54,182 nt of DNA from an uncultured bacterium (GTDB taxonomy: Bacteria > Patescibacteriota > Minisyncoccia > Moranbacterales > GWC2-37-73). Positions 1-48,713 of the stretch are shown here, piece by piece. The stretch is from NCBI GenBank assembly GCA_903861715.1, contig CAIOVI010000037.1:1-54182 (forward strand). The letters run 5' to 3'. The stretch's first letter is position 1. Every line of letters starts with the position of its first letter. The notes beneath the pieces are model-generated. The model saw only the letters and a list, made by a program, of their open reading frames with translations, made no database searches and was not told the DNA's origin. A program made the translations under genes and the position numbers.

Positions 1-3000
1 TAAAATATAACGCTTGTGCATAACTTGCAGAATAAAACCTTCCAGCATTGTCTACATTAAACTTGCTCGCACCACCCACCTGCAAATCCATCAAATTCCC
101 TGTGTACCCACTCACTTCATCGACTGCAATCGAGGTTCCGTTTGCCGAACCGGCGAATTTGCCGGCGGTTGAACCGTCGAACGCTCCGCCTCCAATTGAG
201 AGCGTTCCATAATTAACCGAGGCTGTCGGAGCGCCGGAGACACTGAGTTTTCCGTAGGGCGTAGAGGTGCCGATGCCGACGTTGCCGTTCGTATTTATAT
301 ACATTGAATAAGCACCGGTAGTTCCAACGGAACCCTGATAGAATCCAATTCCTGCTTTACTATAGTCATCAAAAATTAACTTTTGACCACCAGACCACAG
401 ATAATTTCCACTTGAAGGACCCGCTACTTGCGTGCCGCCGTCTTTAACGGTCCCAAAGATAATTCCATCAGTGTATGCGCTCAGTTTGTTATCGCCCACA
501 AAGAATAGCGAATTATTTGCGGCAGCATCATAGGCTGCAAACACATAGCCGTTCTGAGAACTTGAAACTTGGAGCTTTCCGTAAGTATCGGCAACAGTAT
601 TGCCAATCACAGTAGTCCCGTTAACCTGCAAAGCCGCCCCCGGACTCGTCGTCCCGATTCCGACATTGCCGTTGCCCAAAACAGCCAAGCGAGAACCGCC
701 GGTCAGGGTGTAGGCCACACTAGTGTTGGCGTTGGTGATGGCAGCCACAGTCATGGAGGTGTCAGATCCAATAGCTGAAATTGCAACAGTTTGTCCGCCA
801 ACGGTCACCGTGTCTCCAACTTTGAAAGTGTTGGTGAATTGCGTTCCCACACCCGTAAGCGTTGTGCCACCCGCCGTGTTGGAAACTGTGCCAGGCCCCG
901 TGGTTGGTTGCGTGACCTGGAGAAGTCCTGCTGGCGCAGTGGTGCCAATGCCGACGTTGCCTTGATAATCTATAGTGACCTTTTCACTCGTCCCAGTATA
1001 AAAACGATACCCTCCTCCGTTTGCAGCACCAGTTTGAAACCAAATATCATATTTAGAATTTCTTAAAGCCCCTATCCCTTGTCCGAAGAAATTAGTAGGT
1101 GCACTATTAAATCCCAACAAAGCCCCCGTGCTAATACCAGCAATCGGGTCGGCAGTGACCACGTTTAATAGAGACAAATACCCGTTTGTGGTTGCTACAT
1201 TCCCAGAAGTGGGATTATAACCAATATTCACTAAAGGAATACTATTGGCAACATTATATCCAACGCTTAATAAATTACTCGGACTCGTCGTCCCGATCCC
1301 CACATTCCCCGCCGCCACAATGAGTCCATAGTTATTGGTTCCGCCTGAAGCATTGAGATAAAGTCCGACGTTGGTGCCAGAACCAGTGTGGGTGTTTGAA
1401 ATCTGCGCCCCATAGGTTGAAATAGCCGCCGTGGCATTGGCTCCGGTGGTCAGAATGTTGAGCGCCGTTTGCGAAGCGCCAGCTGCGGTGCCAGAAACTT
1501 GCAGATCCATGAGGTCTCCGGTGGTGAGGGTTGAAGAAGCGCCGTAAAAACCAGTTCCCGTGGTGAGCGAATTGGCCGAAAGATTGAGAGCGGCTCCTGT
1601 GGTGATGCCAGTAGCATTGGCCGAAACAATTGAAAGCGTGCCACCAGGCGTGGCGTTGCCAATTCCAATTCTCCCATTCGTGCTATCCACATTCAAAAGA
1701 GTTGTCCCAGCCGAATTGGTGAGATTAAGAGCGCTCGTGCCAGCTGCCAGCATCCAGGCTTGGGCTTGATTGAGAGCCACGCCGCCAGCTGCGTCCAAGA
1801 CAATTTTTCCAGCGTTGAAAGTTTGCAAAGTCAAATAACTGGAACCAAAAGTTTCACCAGCCGAAATGGCAACTGGTCCAGCCGAATGAATGGTGGCAGA
1901 AGTTGCGTTGGTGAAAGTCAAATCATAAGCCATGGAAACATCGCCCACCGCCATGAAGGAAGTTGGATTGTTGAAAGTTGAAGCCGCTTCAGAAATGGTC
2001 ACGATGTCAGAGCCGTTGGCATTGAGATTGAGCAAATTGCCCGTGCCATCCGTGCGAATGGAAAGTCCGCCAGCCGAGCTGCCAGGGTTGAGGTTGTAAA
2101 TTCTGGCCAGATAGTCATTGGTGGATTTGGAAACATCCAACAAATATTGTGGGCTTGTATTGCCCAGCCCCAAGCGACTGTTTGTTCCATCATAGAAAAA
2201 ATTGGAATTGTCTTGCGCCATGTTGCCAGAAGCGTTGGCATAAAGCACCGAGCCGGCCGTGACCGAAGCAATGTTGCCGCCAATGGCCATCCCACCAGCG
2301 CCGGCTGAAATGGAAGTCCAAGCGCCGGTGGAATTTCTATATTCAATAATTCCCCCATTGTCACGCATGCCATAACCGCCTGCACCCGCCGTGGCTCCCC
2401 AGTTGAGATAGGAAGACGCAGTCAAATTCAAATTGCCAAAAAGTTTGGTCAGTGTGGTGGAAGCATTGCCGATGACGGTGGTGTTGGCGCCAAGTCCAAC
2501 TGCGCCATAGCCAATCACAATCGAATTAGGATCACTATTGGTAGCGCCCCTGGAACCAGCTCCGAGATAAATGGAATTTTCTGGATCAGTCATGGCAGTG
2601 ACTCCATCAGCTTGGAATTGTCCAGCTTGATAACCAAATGCCACATTGTTGGAACCAATTGTGTTGGCAAAAAGAGCATTGCTGCCAAAAGTGCTGTTGT
2701 AATTTCCGGTGGTGTTGCCAGCCGAAGCGCCAGCGCCAACCGCTGAGTTATAAGCTCCATTTGTGAGCGCCGAAAGTGTCGTGACTCCCAAGCCAGTGTT
2801 GAAGGAGGCCTGCGTGCCAGTTCCTGACATCGTGAAATTGCCAGCGCTGGTGCCGGCAAAAAAATTGCTGCCGCTGGTTCCGCTAGCCGCAAAATTGTGA
2901 ATAAAACGATTGACGCCTTTGTAAATCACGCCCGTGGTGGCAGTGGTGGTGTCGACCATGGCCAAAGACCCCGTCAGAGAAAGTTGCTGCGCAGCCGAGG

Positions 3001-6000
3001 TGGTGCCAAGTCCGATGTTGCCATTATCAAGCGCCACGATGCCCAGCGTGCCAGTGGCACTTTGGGTTTGAAAAGCAATGCCAGTGCCGGTGCCAGCGCC
3101 ACGCACATCCAATCTGCCAGCTGGCACAATTGTGCCAAGTCCCAGCCTAGAGTTGGCATCATCCCAGAAAAAATTGGTGTTGCTTTGATTGTAAGCTCCG
3201 GAATTTCCAGCAAAAACCACTGAGCCTTTGGTGAAGCGAGTTGGCGAACCAGTGCCACCATAAATCGGATCGATCACGGCTCCATTCCAAGTTCCATTGG
3301 CAATGGTGCCGGTGCGAACAATGTCAGAAAGATTGCCAGAAGTGATGACGGTGCCAGAAGCATCAGGCAAGAAATAGGTGCGTGCAGCAGTCAGATCGTT
3401 GATGGTGAGTTGTCCCCTGCCTTGCGGATCATAAAACCAAAGTGAAGTGCCAGCTGCGCCAGTGGCGGAAAAAGCATCTCCCGTCAAAGCGTTGCCGACT
3501 GAAGTGATGTCGCCGATGCCACCAGAACCAGCTGAACTCCACGCAAAATTGCTGCTAGCCGAATTATAAATCAACACTTGCCCTTCTGCGCCTGCATTTG
3601 AGGTGCTCAGATCAACTGGCAAAATAGTGCCATTGGTGATTTCGCTTGAGTCAATCGATTGACCCAACAGTGAAACTTCCCCTGAAGCATCCGGAAAAGT
3701 GATGGCACGATTGGCCGTTGGATCAGTGGTGTGTAGGGTGGTTTTATTTTGATCAATCGTAGCTCCCTGCAAGGTGATGTCACCCGTGGAAACGTCAAAG
3801 AAAAAAGCTGAATCCGTGGTGCTATTGCCACCCAGCGCCATGTCGCTAGTAATTGAATTGAGATAGGTGTAGCTGCCAGCATCCGTCCATTTGGAAGCGC
3901 CTGCCCCACCCGTGTTGGAAATCCAAACAAAGCCAGTTGAAATTGGATCGTAGGATAGAATGTAACCAGCCGAAGGACCATTGGTTGCAGCTAGATTGCC
4001 TGATTTGATGGTGGCACTGGCAATTTTGTTGCCAGTGATTGCGCTAGCGCCGATTGAAAAAACTCCTGCCGCAGTGATGGAAGCGTCGCCAGAAAGAGAA
4101 ACAAAAGCTGGAGTCAAGGTTCCATTGGAAACAAGCAACTGACCAGCCGAGATCGGAGCAGTGGCGGTGATAGCACTAGTGCCGTTGCCCAACAAAACGC
4201 CGTGCGGAGTAAAGACCCCCGCTCCGGTGCCACCACTGGCGATTGGCAAAAGTCCAACCACCGCCGAAGTCAAATCCACGGTCGTCCCCAAGGTGGAAGA
4301 AATGGTAATCATTGCTGAATCATTGTTGATGGCAATACCTTGACCCGCCATGAGCGTTCCCAAAGTGTAGCCACTGCCATTGCCAATCAGCAGGGCTCCG
4401 AAACCAGCGACCGTTCCATCCAGCCCGGTTCCCCCGTGCGCCACCGAAAGAGTCGGCGAAATGCTCCAGGTGCCCGAAGAAATGGTTGGCACTCCGCTTA
4501 AAGCATGCGTGTCCAATCCTGTCCCGCCAAGGTTTGCAGCCAGGGTTGAAGTGATATTCCACGCCCCTAAAGCAACAGTTGCCACTCCTGTTAAGGCGGA
4601 CGTATTCAGCCCCGTCCCACCATAAGCAGCGCCAATAGCGGCGCCATGCCAAGTGCCATTCGTGATAGTTGCTAGCTGAGTAATGTCGGGGAAATTGCCA
4701 GTCGTGATGATGGTGCCCGATGCATCTGGCAAAGTGTAGGTGCGAGGATTAGAAAGCGGTGCCAGTGTAAGTTGGCCCCGCCCGTGAGAATCATAAAACC
4801 AAAGCGAAGAACCTTGCGTGGAAGTTGCGGTAAAAGCGTCGTTGGAAATCACATCGCCGATTGAAGTAATATCGCCAATTCCACCTGAACCGATAGCCAC
4901 GGAACCAAAACCGCCAGTCGCATTATCATACACAATCACCTCACCATCTCTCGGCGCACCAGTCACTCCCGTGAAATTAAGGTCGGCTCCCAAAATCGTG
5001 CCGTTGGTAATTTCGCCCGTTTCAATTGTCTGACCCAAAGCAGAAAGTTCGCCGCTAACATTTGGCAAAGTCAGCGTGCGGTTGGCCGTTGGATCAACCA
5101 AGGTAAATGTTGTGCGATATTCATCAATCGTTGCTCCTTGAAAAATGATGCTATTGGAAGCTGCATCAAAGAACAGCGGCGCATCGATGGCTGAAGAAGA
5201 ACCAAGCGCCAAACCATTGGTTGTCTTGGAAAGATAGGTGTAAGCGCCAGTATCCGTCCACTTGGAAGCGCCCGAGCCGCCCGTGTTGGAAATCCAAGTA
5301 AAGCGCCCCAAGGAATCATATGTCAGAATATAGCCAGCAGTCGGATCATTAGTAACACTAAGATTATTTTCCTTAATTGTGTTATCAGCAATTTTCAAGC
5401 TATCAATTGCTCCAGTTCCAATGGTGATGGCGCCCGTAGCCGCAAGCGTTGCGTCGCCGCCAAGCGTTGCGAAAAATGGAAGGCCGCTAGCATTTGCGAG
5501 CAAAAGTTGTCCGCTCGTGCCAGCAGCTGAAGCTGCCACCGCGCTCGTGCCATTGCCGAAAAGCACCCCGTTAGTTGTCAGCGTGCTAGTGCCAGTGCCA
5601 CCGTTGACCACCGGCAAAATTCCCTCCACTTCCGAAGCAAGGTCAACCGAAGTGCCCAAAGTTGATGCGATCGAAATGGCTCCTGACGTATTCGCAATCG
5701 AAATGCCTAAACCAGGAGTCAGAGTCGCCAAGGTATAGCCCGAGCCGTTGCCAATCAGCAGCGCTCCGAAACCTGCCCCCGAACCGTCCAATCCAGTGCC
5801 ACCATAGTGAGTGGAAATGTTGCTTCCCTGCCAAACCCCAGTCGTAATGGTGCCAAGACTTCCCCAAGTCGAGAGTGCCACATTTTCCACGTTGCTCAAA
5901 CCAAGATCAGCTTTGGTCAAAGTTTGCCAGTTGACATCAATGCCATCGGAACGCAACACCTTGCCAGTGTCGCCGATTGGCAAGCGTCTCCACAAAGGAG

Positions 6001-44174: not shown

Positions 44175-45374
44175 TCACCCCATCACTTCGACTTTTTCCA
44201 GCTGCGAGATTTTTTCATTCTCGCAACATTGCTTAGCTAGCCCAAAAGCCACCATCAGCAAAACTGCACTGAGCAAAAACGGCCAATGCAAATTCCTGAC
44301 AAACAAAACCCCACCAACAAGCGGTCCGACAATCATCGAGACTGACAAAATCGAAGACATGATTCCCATCACTTCCCCTCGACGATTGGCTCCGCCAGCC
44401 TTGGCAATAGCGCTCGAAAGCACCACCCGCAAAGTTGATTGAGAAAAGGTAATCAAAATTACACCGAAAATAAAAACAATTGGACTCTTAAAATCCATCA
44501 AGAGAAAGCTTCCCGCCATAACTGGAAAGAACCAAACTTCCAATTGTTTTTCCGTGAAATATTTGAGCCAAATGTTTTTCAGAAAAACAGTTTGGTTGAA
44601 AACCAAAATAATTCCCATGCCAGCAAAAATATAGCCTATCACCCAAGCCGACCAACCGAAAAGTTCTTTCACAAAAAGCGAGAAAATTCCGTTCATGAGA
44701 GCAAAGGCAGTCCCATAAAGAAAAAAAGAAAAATATCTCAAACTCAAAGTTTTATCTTTGGCAGCTCGAAGCAGTGGCAAAAAGGGATTGATTTCAATTT
44801 TCTTTTCAGAAACTGTTCTGTTGTGATGAGTTTCTGGCAAAAAGAACCAAGCGCCAACCATGTTAAGCAGCGCCAAGACTCCCACAAACCAAAAGGGGAA
44901 AGCTGGAGAAATAGCACTAAGCATCGCACCCAAAAATGGCCCGATGATAAATCCAATGCCAAAAACTGCCCCAATGATTCCCAAATTTGATGTTCGTTCT
45001 TTGTCATCCTTGGCAATATCCACCAAATAACTTTGAGCAATCGGAAAATTTCCAGCTGCTGCTCCATCAATGATGCGCCCCAAAAACAAAACCCAGACCG
45101 CATTGGCCCCGGCAAACACAAACCAACCCAAAGCTGTGCTGGCAATGCTCAAAATCAAAACCGGTCTTCTGCCAATGCGATCTGAAAGTGCTCCCAAAAA
45201 TGGCCCGCTCACAAAAGAAAAAAGCGCAAAAACTGAAAAAAGCAACGTCACCACAAAAGAAGAAACCCCAAAACTCTCCACATAAAAAGGCAAAACCGGA
45301 ATAATAATCCCAATTCCCAAGACATCAATAAACACCGTCGCCATTATAATCAACTTATCTTTTTGAATTTTCAT
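44175..45374 (-). CDS. MFS efflux transporter (TetA/DHA1-like)
   Basis: 399 residues with 12 hydrophobic segments. Motif A is GALSDRIGRRPVLI after helix 2; helix 1 has FIDVLGIGIIIPVLPFYV, typical of TetA-like drug/proton antiporters; motif C-like GPFLGAMLS lies in helix 5. The substrate is unknown. It is downstream of murI and the cyclodipeptide synthase gene, so export of a cyclodipeptide product is possible but only inferred from position. The stop is UGA. Confidence 0.88.
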   Translation of the reverse strand: MKIQKDKLIIMATVFIDVLGIGIIIPVLPFYVESFGVSSFVVTLLFSVFALFSFVSGPFLGALSDRIGRRPVLILSIASTALGWFVFAGANAVWVLFLGRIIDGAAAGNFPIAQSYLVDIAKDDKERTSNLGIIGAVFGIGFIIGPFLGAMLSAISPAFPFWFVGVLALLNMVGAWFFLPETHHNRTVSEKKIEINPFLPLLRAAKDKTLSLRYFSFFLYGTAFALMNGIFSLFVKELFGWSAWVIGYIFAGMGIILVFNQTVFLKNIWLKYFTEKQLEVWFFPVMAGSFLLMDFKSPIVFIFGVILITFSQSTLRVVLSSAIAKAGGANRRGEVMGIMSSILSVSMIVGPLVGGVLFVRNLHWPFLLSAVLLMVAFGLAKQCCENEKISQLEKVEVMG

Positions 45375-45486: not shown

Positions 45487-45530
45487 AAAGTGTGACAGAA
45501 GTCTGCGGTCGCAGACTTCTGTCACACTTT
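45487..45530. repeat. Long palindromic terminator-like repeat, copy 1
   Basis: AAGTGTGACAGAAGTCTGC, GGTC, then the exact reverse complement and TTT. A perfect stem of 19 bp flanked by A and T tracts, between murI and the MFS gene. Likely a bidirectional terminator. Confidence 0.9.
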
Positions 45531-45571: not shown

Positions 45572-46369
45572 TTAACTCAACGAAATAACAAACAAGTCAA
45601 TTTTCTCACCATAAAATAATTCCGCCAACGCTTGGACATGTGGTGAATTTTCAGTCGTTAAAAATATTTTCTTTCCCCCTTCCTTTAACTTATCTTTAAA
45701 TTCAGGATGCCGATCGAGATACTCTTTTAGTTTTTTTGCGACAATTTCTCCTTGAGAAAATATTTTAATCCCATCTGGAAGATATTTACGAAAAGTTTTT
45801 TCGACTATTGCATAATGCGTGCACCCCAAAATTATAGCATCCATTGAAATACTTTTTTCGAAAAGCTCTTGCGCATATTCCTGAACAACGCTATCAAGTT
45901 GTTCAAAATTTCCAGCCTCAATAATCGGTACCAGCAAAGGACAAGCTTGTTGGAAAACCTTCGCCTGCGGATTAAACTTTGAAATTTCAGCCAAATAAGC
46001 ACACGAGGAAACAGTTGCCTCGGTTGCAAAAATTCCAACATTTCTCGTCCCAATCATTTCTTCCGCAGTCGGAATAATTATTCCCAAAACTTTTTTGCCA
46101 GGATGTTTATCTGGAAGATATTCCTGCTGCAATCTTCTCAATGCCATAGTTGAGGATGTGTTACAGGCTAAAATGATAAGATTAGCTCCTCGCCGAAACA
46201 ACTCCTCAACACCCTGACAGGTATATTGATAAATTTTTTCTTGAGAAAGATTCCCATAAGGAGTTCGAGCATTATCACCCAAATAAATATAGGAATAATT
46301 CGGCAAAGCCTTTTCCACTTCCTTTAAAATAGTCAGGCCTCCAAAGCCAGAATCAAAAAATCCAATCAT
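45572..46369 (-). CDS. murI: Glutamate racemase
   Basis: 265 residues, normal length. It makes D-glutamate for peptidoglycan. FFDSGFGGLTIL (Asp6) at the start, catalytic Cys69 (LACNTSS) and Cys183 (ILGCTHYAIVE), both present. Next to it lie the cyclodipeptide synthase fusion (upstream) and the MFS gene (downstream), separated by palindromic repeats. TATAAA ends about 7 bases before the ATG, a possible leaderless start. Confidence 0.95.
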   Translation of the reverse strand: MIGFFDSGFGGLTILKEVEKALPNYSYIYLGDNARTPYGNLSQEKIYQYTCQGVEELFRRGANLIILACNTSSTMALRRLQQEYLPDKHPGKKVLGIIIPTAEEMIGTRNVGIFATEATVSSCAYLAEISKFNPQAKVFQQACPLLVPIIEAGNFEQLDSVVQEYAQELFEKSISMDAIILGCTHYAIVEKTFRKYLPDGIKIFSQGEIVAKKLKEYLDRHPEFKDKLKEGGKKIFLTTENSPHVQALAELFYGEKIDLFVISLS

Positions 46370-46411: not shown

Positions 46412-46455
46412 AAAAGTGTGACACATCTCTGCGGTCGCAGACTTCTGTCACACTT
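46412..46455. repeat. Long palindromic repeat, copy 2
   Basis: Same family as 45487. The left arm reads GTGTGACACATCTCTGC, so the middle of the stem has mismatches; the loop is GGTC. Between the cyclodipeptide synthase stop and murI. Confidence 0.88.
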
Positions 46456-46457
46456 TA

Positions 46458-47885
46458 TTATTCCATTATAAGGGCATCCGAACTTTCGGTGTATTTCTTT
46501 ATAAGGGTTGTGATTGTTCCATTTTGTTTCAAAATATTTAGCTCAGTATCCAAGAAATCTTTTAGTCTCTTTTCGCCTAATTTAAAAATGAAAGGATTTT
46601 CGTAAACCCTAATTGGCTTTGCTGGAATTGGCACCAATTCAACCGCTGAATTTTTGTTAAAACTTTCAACAATACAAGGTTCCGTAAATGTAAAATCTGC
46701 TTTATCCTCAGCCACAAATTTTAGAGCTCCCATCACGCTGTCCAATTGCGGAATTCCGACTTGTCGATTGTTTGGAAAGTCAGCTTTCACAATTGAATCC
46801 GTGATGTCATTTTCAATCACGGCCACCCGAATATTTTTATCACCACGAATTTCTTCAATGGTTTTTCCATAGTCAGCGCGAACCCAGGCAAAAGCTGGGC
46901 TTTTATATAGTGACATTGAAAAATCAGCCTTTACCTTTCGCTCTGGCGTCGGCCAAGCAGTGCTGCCAAACATATCAAATCGATTGCTTTCCAAACCTTC
47001 AATAATCACCCCATAACCAACCTCTTCAGTCCAACGAACTTGCCAACTATATTTTTCAGAAATCAAAGAAATAATCTCAAAAAATATTCCCGAGAAAGCA
47101 TTGCGCTCTTCATTATGAATAAAAGCTGGCGGATAATTGATAAAACCAACTCGCAAGATTTTTGTTTTTTCTATCCTATCCAAAACATCCGCAAAACTCT
47201 CATCTTCCTGATCATCCTCCAGCCCCCAGATTGGGTTATATGTTTCATACGGATTTTCAATCAGCAGAAAATCTAGTTGATTCCTAACTATATCGTCGAA
47301 TTTTCCAGAAACATAGCTTTCGTAAACCTCCCAATTTTTATGATAAACATAAACAGCCTTTTGAGTTTTGAGAAATTGCGGCGCGAATTCCAAAAATGCC
47401 AACTCTGAAAGCAGATAGTGAACAGCTATGTCAGTTGATTTTTCCAAATCTTCAATCTTTCGTTCGCCACCTTCTAAAACTTTTCGCGTTGTCAAACTCG
47501 CGACAGCGTGAAATTTTTTATTATTTTTATATAGGTCCAAAACCTGCGCGTATTTCTCCTTATAGTCAGGATTATTTTCAACTTCACCCTCCCAATCAAT
47601 AATTCTCACAATATCATTCAAATAGCCTAACTCCTTTGCTACCTTCAAAACCCTATTTTTCAAAGCATTTCCTTTTGGAATTGCTTTATCTCTGCGCGCT
47701 CGATTTTCTGGATAACCAAAAGCCACATAAGTTGAAATGGCAGGAATGTCAGCCACCAAAATGGCTACTCTGCCAAACCGTTCCACAATGGTCTTCAAAA
47801 GATAACTAATTTCCTCATCTTTAAAATAGCTATTCCCAGGACTCATTCCAATGATATGATAGACTTTTTGGTCAATATTCGACAT
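46458..47885 (-). CDS. Cyclodipeptide synthase fused to SBP_bac_3-like domain
   Basis: 475 residues. Residues 1 to about 218 match tRNA-dependent cyclodipeptide synthases (AlbC type): IIGMSPGNSYF with the catalytic Ser15 and Asn18, KGNALKNRVLKV, and HYLLSELAFLEFAP with Tyr157 and Glu161, spaced as Tyr178/Glu182 of AlbC. CDPSs link two aminoacyl-tRNAs into a diketopiperazine. Residues about 243-470 look like a family 3 amino-acid-binding protein (LRVGFINYPPAF, GIFFEIISLISEKYSW, GLESNRFDMFGSTAWPTPERK, ADFTFTEPC). No signal peptide or helix separates them, so the binding domain should be cytoplasmic, perhaps an amino-acid or product sensor. TATAAT lies 8 bases before the ATG. I know no such fusion; it needs a database search. 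Confidence 0.85.
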   Translation of the reverse strand: MSNIDQKVYHIIGMSPGNSYFKDEEISYLLKTIVERFGRVAILVADIPAISTYVAFGYPENRARRDKAIPKGNALKNRVLKVAKELGYLNDIVRIIDWEGEVENNPDYKEKYAQVLDLYKNNKKFHAVASLTTRKVLEGGERKIEDLEKSTDIAVHYLLSELAFLEFAPQFLKTQKAVYVYHKNWEVYESYVSGKFDDIVRNQLDFLLIENPYETYNPIWGLEDDQEDESFADVLDRIEKTKILRVGFINYPPAFIHNEERNAFSGIFFEIISLISEKYSWQVRWTEEVGYGVIIEGLESNRFDMFGSTAWPTPERKVKADFSMSLYKSPAFAWVRADYGKTIEEIRGDKNIRVAVIENDITDSIVKADFPNNRQVGIPQLDSVMGALKFVAEDKADFTFTEPCIVESFNKNSAVELVPIPAKPIRVYENPFIFKLGEKRLKDFLDTELNILKQNGTITTLIKKYTESSDALIME

Positions 47886-47950
47886 ACGGCTAAATTATAC
47901 AATTTAAGATATTTCCTCTTTTTATCCTACCAGACAAATTTTAATTTTAG

Positions 47951-47994
47951 AAGTGTGACACATCTCTGCGACCGCAGACTTCTGTCACACTTTT
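47951..47994. repeat. Long palindromic repeat, copy 3
   Basis: Shares the ACATCTCTGC left arm with copy 2, but its loop is GACC, the reverse complement of GGTC in the other copies. Between the PaaX-like gene and the cyclodipeptide synthase fusion gene. Confidence 0.88.
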
Positions 47995-48008: not shown

Positions 48009-48605
48009 TCATTTATTTCCACCCTTTTTATCAATTTTTGAATAATCAAAAATTTTGTCAACTAAAAGATAATTCACAAATTTATTCATCTTTCTTTTTT
48101 GAATTTCAACGATTATGTCTTCTGTTAAAGAAAACTTACTAATGAAAACACTTTCTTGTAGCTGCTCATATTGCAGAAGATAAAGTTCCCCTCGCAACCA
48201 ATTCCGATCTGCTCTATTTTTTTCCGGAATATCAAAAATTACAAGTCGATATTTTCCATCCCATTTTTTTGCTAAAACTTTTCTGCGCAAACCAATACTT
48301 TCAAACAATTTTATTCCCCTTACACTTAGCGAAAAGATACTGCCTTTCTTTTTCACAATTCCCTGTGCGATCAATCTTTCCAGATTTTTTCTGATTGTAT
48401 TTTTGCTGATTTTCTTATTTTCGAAACCAGTTTCAAATCCAAACAACATTCTTGTTGGTTTTGTGAAGGAATATTTTGGAGAGAAAAATGACTGCGAAGT
48501 CGCCTCGCCTAATTCCCAAAGAGTGGCACAAATATAGTCATTAACCGCTGGTACGCTTTTAAGGATGTGCTTCTGAGCCTGTTTAAGAAAAGTTTTGCTA
48601 GCCAT
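48009..48605 (-). CDS. PaaX-like regulator with Cas2-like C-terminal domain
   Basis: 198 residues. N-terminal winged helix (SKNTIRKNLERLIAQGIVKKKGSIFSLSVRGIKLFE), then KWDGKYRLVIFDIPEKNRADRNWLRGELYLLQYEQLQESVFIS in two parts, the fold shared by the PaaX C-terminal domain and Cas2. No CRISPR array or cas genes are here, so a Cas2 role is unlikely. It is immediately upstream of the cyclodipeptide synthase fusion in the same direction and may regulate it. Confidence 0.78.
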   Translation of the reverse strand: MASKTFLKQAQKHILKSVPAVNDYICATLWELGEATSQSFFSPKYSFTKPTRMLFGFETGFENKKISKNTIRKNLERLIAQGIVKKKGSIFSLSVRGIKLFESIGLRRKVLAKKWDGKYRLVIFDIPEKNRADRNWLRGELYLLQYEQLQESVFISKFSLTEDIIVEIQKRKMNKFVNYLLVDKIFDYSKIDKKGGNK

Positions 48606-48667: not shown

Positions 48668-48713
48668 AAAAGTGTGACAGAAGTCTGCGGTCGCAGACTT
48701 CTGTCACACTTTT
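48668..48713. repeat. Long palindromic repeat, copy 4
   Basis: Identical stem and loop to copy 1 (AAGTGTGACAGAAGTCTGC, GGTC) with flanking A and T tracts. Between the GHKL gene and the PaaX-like gene. Confidence 0.9.

Follow-up and report, generated by a model that had tools for sequence, protein, structure and literature searches.

The gene described here encodes a cyclodipeptide synthase (CDPS) joined in frame to a C-terminal domain of the SBP_bac_3 family of solute-binding proteins (SBPs). It lies in 54,182 nucleotides of DNA from an uncultured Moranbacterales bacterium, and this whole stretch is referred to below as the window. Profile matches and residue alignments confirmed the assignment of the N-terminal half as an NYH-type cyclodipeptide synthase with an intact active site. 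The C-terminal domain is of a kind that usually takes up nutrients outside the cell; judging from its sequence, its probable role in the fusion is to control the enzyme in response to a small molecule. The chances appear about even that the protein is a cytoplasmic CDPS whose activity is gated when a ligand binds to its SBP domain. More tentatively, we propose that it may be the first ligand-gated CDPS, one that would draw on charged tRNAs and carry a cytoplasmic Venus-flytrap sensor derived from an ABC-transporter binding protein, so that its output would follow an amino acid or a similar solute in a bacterium whose genome is very small.

The fusion comprises an intact CDPS and a solute-binding domain

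The open reading frame runs on the minus strand from an ATG at position 47885 to a stop codon at 46458-46460, and the plus-strand frames of the same interval hold 16, 24 and 21 stop codons (Table 1). The sequence-only reading had given these coordinates correctly and had left the strand unstated. In domain searches each half matched its own Pfam family and solved structures of that family. The N-terminal half matched PF16715 (CDPS; E 1.5e-28, 100.5 bits against a cut-off of 27, aa 10-195) and the NCBIfam model TIGR04539 (tRNA_cyclodipep; E 1.4e-35, 122.9 bits against a cut-off of 45). The C-terminal half matched PF00497 (SBP_bac_3; Pfam E 1.1e-16, 61.3 bits against a cut-off of 26.4, aa 244-466), as did the same region of both relatives described below. 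The CDPS signature GMSPGNSYF (aa 13-21) with Tyr157 and Glu161, and the SBP_bac_3-like nature of the second half, were thus read correctly from the sequence. The lack of an export signal had also been claimed, and a hydropathy scan agreed, with no hydrophobic segment at the N-terminus. The maximum 19-residue hydropathy of the fusion (1.59) falls inside the CDPS core, not at the N-terminus, compared with 1.9-2.4 at aa 5-8 in related exported SBPs; the N-terminus of the fusion is therefore less hydrophobic than theirs and an export signal is not evident. By this measure, both domains of the fusion appear to be cytoplasmic. AlphaFold models had mean pLDDT values of 41 (the fusion with one relative, the viral CDPS L029) and 37 (the SBP half alone), which are too poor for a judgement of the fold.

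Table 1. Features of the fusion gene and its surroundings in the window
Feature	Position	Strand	Remarks
MFS transporter, possible exporter	44175..45374	-	also in congener G002, without the fusion
Palindrome copies, 38 bp, two further	45490-45527, 48672-48709		intergenic
Glutamate racemase-like gene (Asp_Glu_race), downstream neighbour	45572..46369	-	palindrome between; probably a separate unit
Palindrome copy, 38 bp, hairpin	46416..46453	.	directly after the fusion stop codon
Fusion gene CDPS-SBP_bac_3	46458..47885	-	475 aa; full length kept in L005 and L006
SBP_bac_3 domain, aa 244-466	46488..47156	-	Y251, Y291, W311, R316, D360, I361 and E402 invariant in the three fusions
Inter-domain linker, aa 198-235	47181..47294	-	fusion-specific motif DFLL-x-ENP-x-ET
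CDPS domain	47298..47861	-	profile match in whole-genome search; Pfam aa 10-195
Palindrome copy, 38 bp	47953..47990	.	67 bp upstream of the fusion start codon
PaaX/Cas2-like winged-helix regulator, upstream neighbour	48009..48605	-	7 members in the source genome; in congeners without the fusion

Alignment to YvmC, other solved CDPSs and fetched CDPSs showed that the NYH signature, for which we take N40 and H203 to be the AlbC numbering, is complete in the fusion (N18, Y181 and H182). The catalytic residues S15, Y157, E161 and Y181 are all present and are identical across the three fusions found; their AlbC equivalents, S37, Y178, E182 and Y202, are almost strictly conserved in active CDPSs (PMC7566563). 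The solved CDPSs are only weakly similar to the fusion (best phmmer E 7.6e-11), and the characterised CDPS from Parcubacteria, CDPS 90 (cHP/cHE), is of the XYP type and not NYH (PMC5816076). The closest standalone CDPS found was L015, from genome G482 of the same class, with 42% identity. In a tree of the CDPS half the three fusions and L015 grouped together with support of 92/90, and the support for the three fusions as a sole group was just 75/66.

In G482 a single glycyl-tRNA synthetase gene was found, and the L015 CDPS begins ~2 bp after it (the two genes lie at L015:1438-2079 and 2085-3422), which suggests that they are co-transcribed; the CDPS product perhaps contains glycine. In a viral sequence (IMGVR_UViG_3300049926_000093, L029:2932-5184) a CDPS is followed by two proteins, one like a PAS-histidine kinase and one like a receiver, and the locus adjoins SSB and apparent phage recombination genes. 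A Legionella lytica plasmid carries a CDPS plus a response regulator, and on Streptomyces mirabilis plasmid pI (L025:1929-4579) a CDPS is flanked by ArsR/metal-responsive regulators on one side and a heavy-metal P-type ATPase gene on the other.

The fusion gene is bounded by palindromes

A 38-bp palindrome, GTGTGACA-N4-TCTGCG-NN-CGCAGA-N4-TGTCACAC, is present in each of four successive intergenic gaps around the fusion gene, where none is expected by chance. The source genome (G000) has 11 copies and three of four congeners have 3 to 7; none was detected in five genomes tested outside the genus. The predicted RNA hairpin is strong (-24 to -36 kcal/mol) and two copies were flagged as terminator-like; the palindrome could be a mobile or uptake-linked repeat. 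Since its copies flank the gene and divide it from the neighbours, the fusion is probably transcribed alone. A TATAAT lies ~8 bases before the ATG (47886-47900), no Shine-Dalgarno sequence is found close by, and the transcript may be leaderless, going by these motifs.

An operon with the racemase and MFS genes was considered and is unlikely, as terminator-like palindromes stand between the genes and as MFS and PaaX genes in G002, and PaaX and racemase genes in G001, occur without the fusion. A link of the fusion to the PaaX and CYTH genes, both of which lie no more than 9 kb from it in the relative G056, was rejected because these two genes are also near each other in G001 and G002, which lack the fusion. 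In four genomes from two families (G001:C45, G002:C3, G000:C37 and G056:C12), with or without the fusion, the PaaX/Cas2-like regulator and CYTH genes were found within ~5 kb of each other. In G056 a methyltransferase gene lies ~220 bp upstream of the fusion, and in the other relative, G063, the fusion is at a contig end. No neighbour is common to all three fusions, which suggests that the fusion is a self-contained unit.

The fusion is absent from the syntenic locus of the congeners G001, G002 and G003. One syntenic locus contains a glutamate racemase in G000 and in G001 (L031:5707-6501). In G002 and G003 (L032:5150-7672; L033:4940-7495) it contains a protein of 840-851 aa with N-terminal GGGKDS-type and C-terminal Mur ligase domains, perhaps a MurL-MurD2 fusion. 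Alternative D-glutamate routes may have been swapped near palindrome copies.

The SBP half retains binding-type residues in its pocket

In amino-acid SBPs an Arg holds the ligand carboxylate and an Asp or Glu holds the amine; further elements are a Ser/Thr close to this Arg and the GTT loop of lobe 2. Sequence alignment placed R316 at the carboxylate-Arg position and E402 at the amine-Asp position, both invariant in the fusions, and Y251 and Y291 on aromatic pocket positions. W311 replaces the usual Ser/Thr (the S72 position), and the lobe 2 GTT loop reads NDI or GDI (D360-I361). The sequence-only reading had called this domain amino-acid-binding, a description that holds for R316 and E402 and fails at the Ser/Thr and the GTT loop. 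An amino acid may be the ligand, although the contact positions that usually carry Thr and GTT are altered. The three fusions have the same residue at six of the eight canonical pocket positions, compared with 79 of 231 positions (34%) in the domain, a modest difference (hypergeometric p 0.02) for positions chosen by the analyst and mapped by sequence alignment. The variable positions are S308/T309, which are A/P in G063. By this conservation, the pocket looks used.

The best curated SBP match in NCBIfam was the ectoine-binding protein EhuB (TIGR02995), and this identity was rejected since the score of 42 bits is far under the cut-off of 190.9. As a lead only, Y291, W311 and R316 align to the aromatic-aromatic-Arg set near the ectoine site of EhuB, using what we take to be its ectoine-contact residues.

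The best PDB matches of the SBP half were ancestral cyclohexadienyl dehydratases (CDTs). This raises the alternative that the SBP half is a tailoring enzyme, turned catalytic in the manner of CDT and modifying the cyclodipeptide or its substrate. Chorismate mutase-CDT fusions are a case of an SBP-derived enzyme joined to another enzyme (PMC10520331), and the described C-terminal fusions of CDPSs include tailoring enzymes, namely methyltransferase and P450, which favours catalysis over sensing and counts against gating (PMC5816076). However, the top match, AncCDT-1, is a non-catalytic arginine binder (PMC7683729). The active site of PaCDT comprises nine residues, including Glu173, Asn128, Thr132 and Asn133 (PMC10520331). 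In the fusion the position of the general acid Glu173 is Ile405 (Leu in the two relatives), that of Asn128 is Ile357, and those of Thr132/Asn133 are Ile361/Thr362, and the identity as a cyclohexadienyl dehydratase was rejected. The retention of the binding-type R316 and the acidic E402 also argues against a tailoring role, which we regard as unlikely.

A second alternative is that the SBP half captures or hands over the cyclodipeptide product, either limiting feedback or toxicity or passing it to an exporter. With W311 and D360 instead of Thr and GTT the pocket departs from that of a plain amino-acid binder. In addition, the source genome has an MFS transporter gene downstream of the fusion, and CDPSs often have MFS efflux genes nearby (PMC5767969). 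However, the downstream MFS gene is separated from the fusion by palindromes and is also found in G002 without it, and the invariant R316 and E402 bind a free carboxylate and a free amine, neither of which is present in a cyclodipeptide backbone. Product capture is given little weight, slightly less than tailoring.

The nearest SBP relatives within the phylum (L002 from the source genome itself, L003, L004 and L007) are of the exported ABC-transporter type and share 29-33% identity with the fused domain. The gene for the L002 protein stands between genes for a TrmB-type regulator and for a permease and ATPase. SBPs of this kind are rare in the phylum, with a match at E <= 1e-12 in the source genome only among a sample of 286 genomes. 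In the SBP tree the fused domains formed one clade (100/99), and the fusions together with the same-phylum transporter SBPs were split from two proteobacterial SBPs (97/95). Because the fused SBPs form one clade beside exported SBPs of the same phylum, the tree is most simply explained by a single fusion in which the signal peptide was lost. The fused domain itself does not have the hallmarks of an ABC-transporter binding protein: it has no N-terminal hydrophobic segment, and no ABC-type transporter genes adjoin the fusion.

Distribution and divergence of the fusion

All 128 genomes of the order were searched, and the fusion was found in three (G000, G056 and G063). The G056 and G063 proteins, from another family of the order, are 58% and 52% identical to the source fusion over their full length. 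Three overlapping samples were also searched. Those from the class (383 genomes) and the phylum (379 genomes) contained no further fusion and yielded five standalone CDPSs, and the third, 55 genomes from one other class, added nothing to these. The sole match in a scan of genome contigs, L008 from Flavobacterium, falls in an adenylate kinase-like ORF and was discarded as a false positive. No relative was found in viral sequences, whether the query was the fusion, the SBP set or an SBP motif, and PADLOC returned nothing for the fusion. Genome sizes across the phylum are 0.5-1.4 Mb.

The linker of the source fusion is 67% identical to that of G056 and 46% to that of G063; its ENP-x-ET segment is invariant in the three fusions and is missing from L015 in the alignment. 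For the pairs G000-G056, G000-G063 and G056-G063, identity is 68%, 64% and 63% in the CDPS half and 51%, 43% and 47% in the SBP half, so the SBP half changes faster (43-51% versus 63-68%). In both halves third codon positions differ in 0.59-0.72 of codons and second positions in 0.19-0.34; positions 1 and 2 change less than position 3, indicating constraint in both.

The faster divergence of the SBP half would fit a domain with a purely passive role, stabilising or dimerising the enzyme without binding any ligand, as would the activity that the CDPS half of the P450 fusion CDPS 71 shows in isolation (PMC5816076). However, codon positions 1 and 2 are clearly constrained in the SBP half and its pocket positions are kept above the rest of the domain (p 0.02), and a passive role seems less probable again than product capture. 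Because two pocket positions vary and the SBP half diverges faster, the ligands may differ among the species, as far as the sequences indicate. Lysyl-tRNA synthetase identity is 72% between G063 and G056 and 64% between G063 and G000. Compared with these values, the identities of the fusion do not closely track the species order, and the fusion has likely departed from it through horizontal transfer, on this comparison of identities.

An artefact of assembly or gene prediction joining two genes can be practically dismissed: the source is a draft genome of 63 contigs, but a single palindrome stands at either side of the gene, and full-length, in-frame counterparts with a conserved linker are present in G056 and G063, two genomes of other genera. 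The sequence-only reading had named an artefact not seen in relatives as a refuting outcome.

Discussion

The reading that we favour is a cytoplasmic CDPS gated by its C-terminal domain. The SBP domain would derive from a binding protein of an ABC transporter in the same lineage and would have lost the export signal. As in the CDPS family generally, the N-terminal half would transfer the aminoacyl group of an aminoacyl-tRNA to Ser15, a second aminoacyl-tRNA would supply the second residue, and the dipeptide would then be cyclised. The C-terminal half, of the type II periplasmic-binding-protein (Venus-flytrap) kind, would close on a small zwitterionic ligand in the cytosol, either an amino acid or a compound related to one. 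Closure would pass via the conserved linker to turn CDPS activity up or down, and the cyclodipeptide output would track the ligand level. Against gating, the gene neighbourhood is not common to the three fusions, and residues differ at two of the eight pocket positions.

If the sensor reading is true, the fusion is a compact natural link between the level of a solute and the use of charged tRNAs, and it could be a template for switchable cyclodipeptide production. In a lineage about whose small molecules almost nothing is known, it would also be an example of a secondary-metabolite enzyme whose regulation can be seen. To our knowledge, SBP-family domains have rarely been described as cytosolic sensors fused to a biosynthetic enzyme.

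The fusion resembles the NYH CDPSs AlbC, YvmC and Rv2275 in its profile match, in the equivalents of S37, Y178, E182 and Y202, and in the N and H of NYH; it differs from them in the added C-terminal SBP_bac_3 domain and in coming from a lineage with few described CDPSs. CDPSs with C-terminal methyltransferase, P450 and unspecified 'ABC-transporter domains' have been described (Canu et al. 2018, PMC5816076). Like the fusion, these have an N-terminal NYH CDPS and one extra C-terminal domain; in the fusion, the extra domain is of a solute-binding protein family. A literature search, with most subscription journals outside its coverage, found no paper on a CDPS with a solute-binding domain and none reporting that a fused domain controls a CDPS allosterically. 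The sequence-only reading, which had known of no described CDPS with this domain, was thus matched by the search, with the qualification that the 'ABC-transporter domains', whose ABC-transporter part is unspecified, could include the CDPS-SBP architecture (PMC5816076).

The transporter SBPs L002, L003, L004 and L007 share the family and, at pocket positions, a W and an acidic residue with the fused domain. In contrast to it, they carry a hydrophobic segment at the N-terminus and are encoded beside permease or ATPase genes. PaCDT and the chorismate mutase-CDT proteins share the SBP family and the joining of an SBP-derived domain to another enzyme, whereas the catalytic Glu173 and Asn128 of PaCDT are missing in the fusion. 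A precedent for sensing is RmcA, in which SBP_bac_3 senses L-arginine and controls enzymatic output (PMC8846402). Sensor domains of the RmcA type likewise have a binding domain and an enzyme in one chain, but they sense from the periplasm across the membrane, whereas both domains of the fusion appear to be cytoplasmic.
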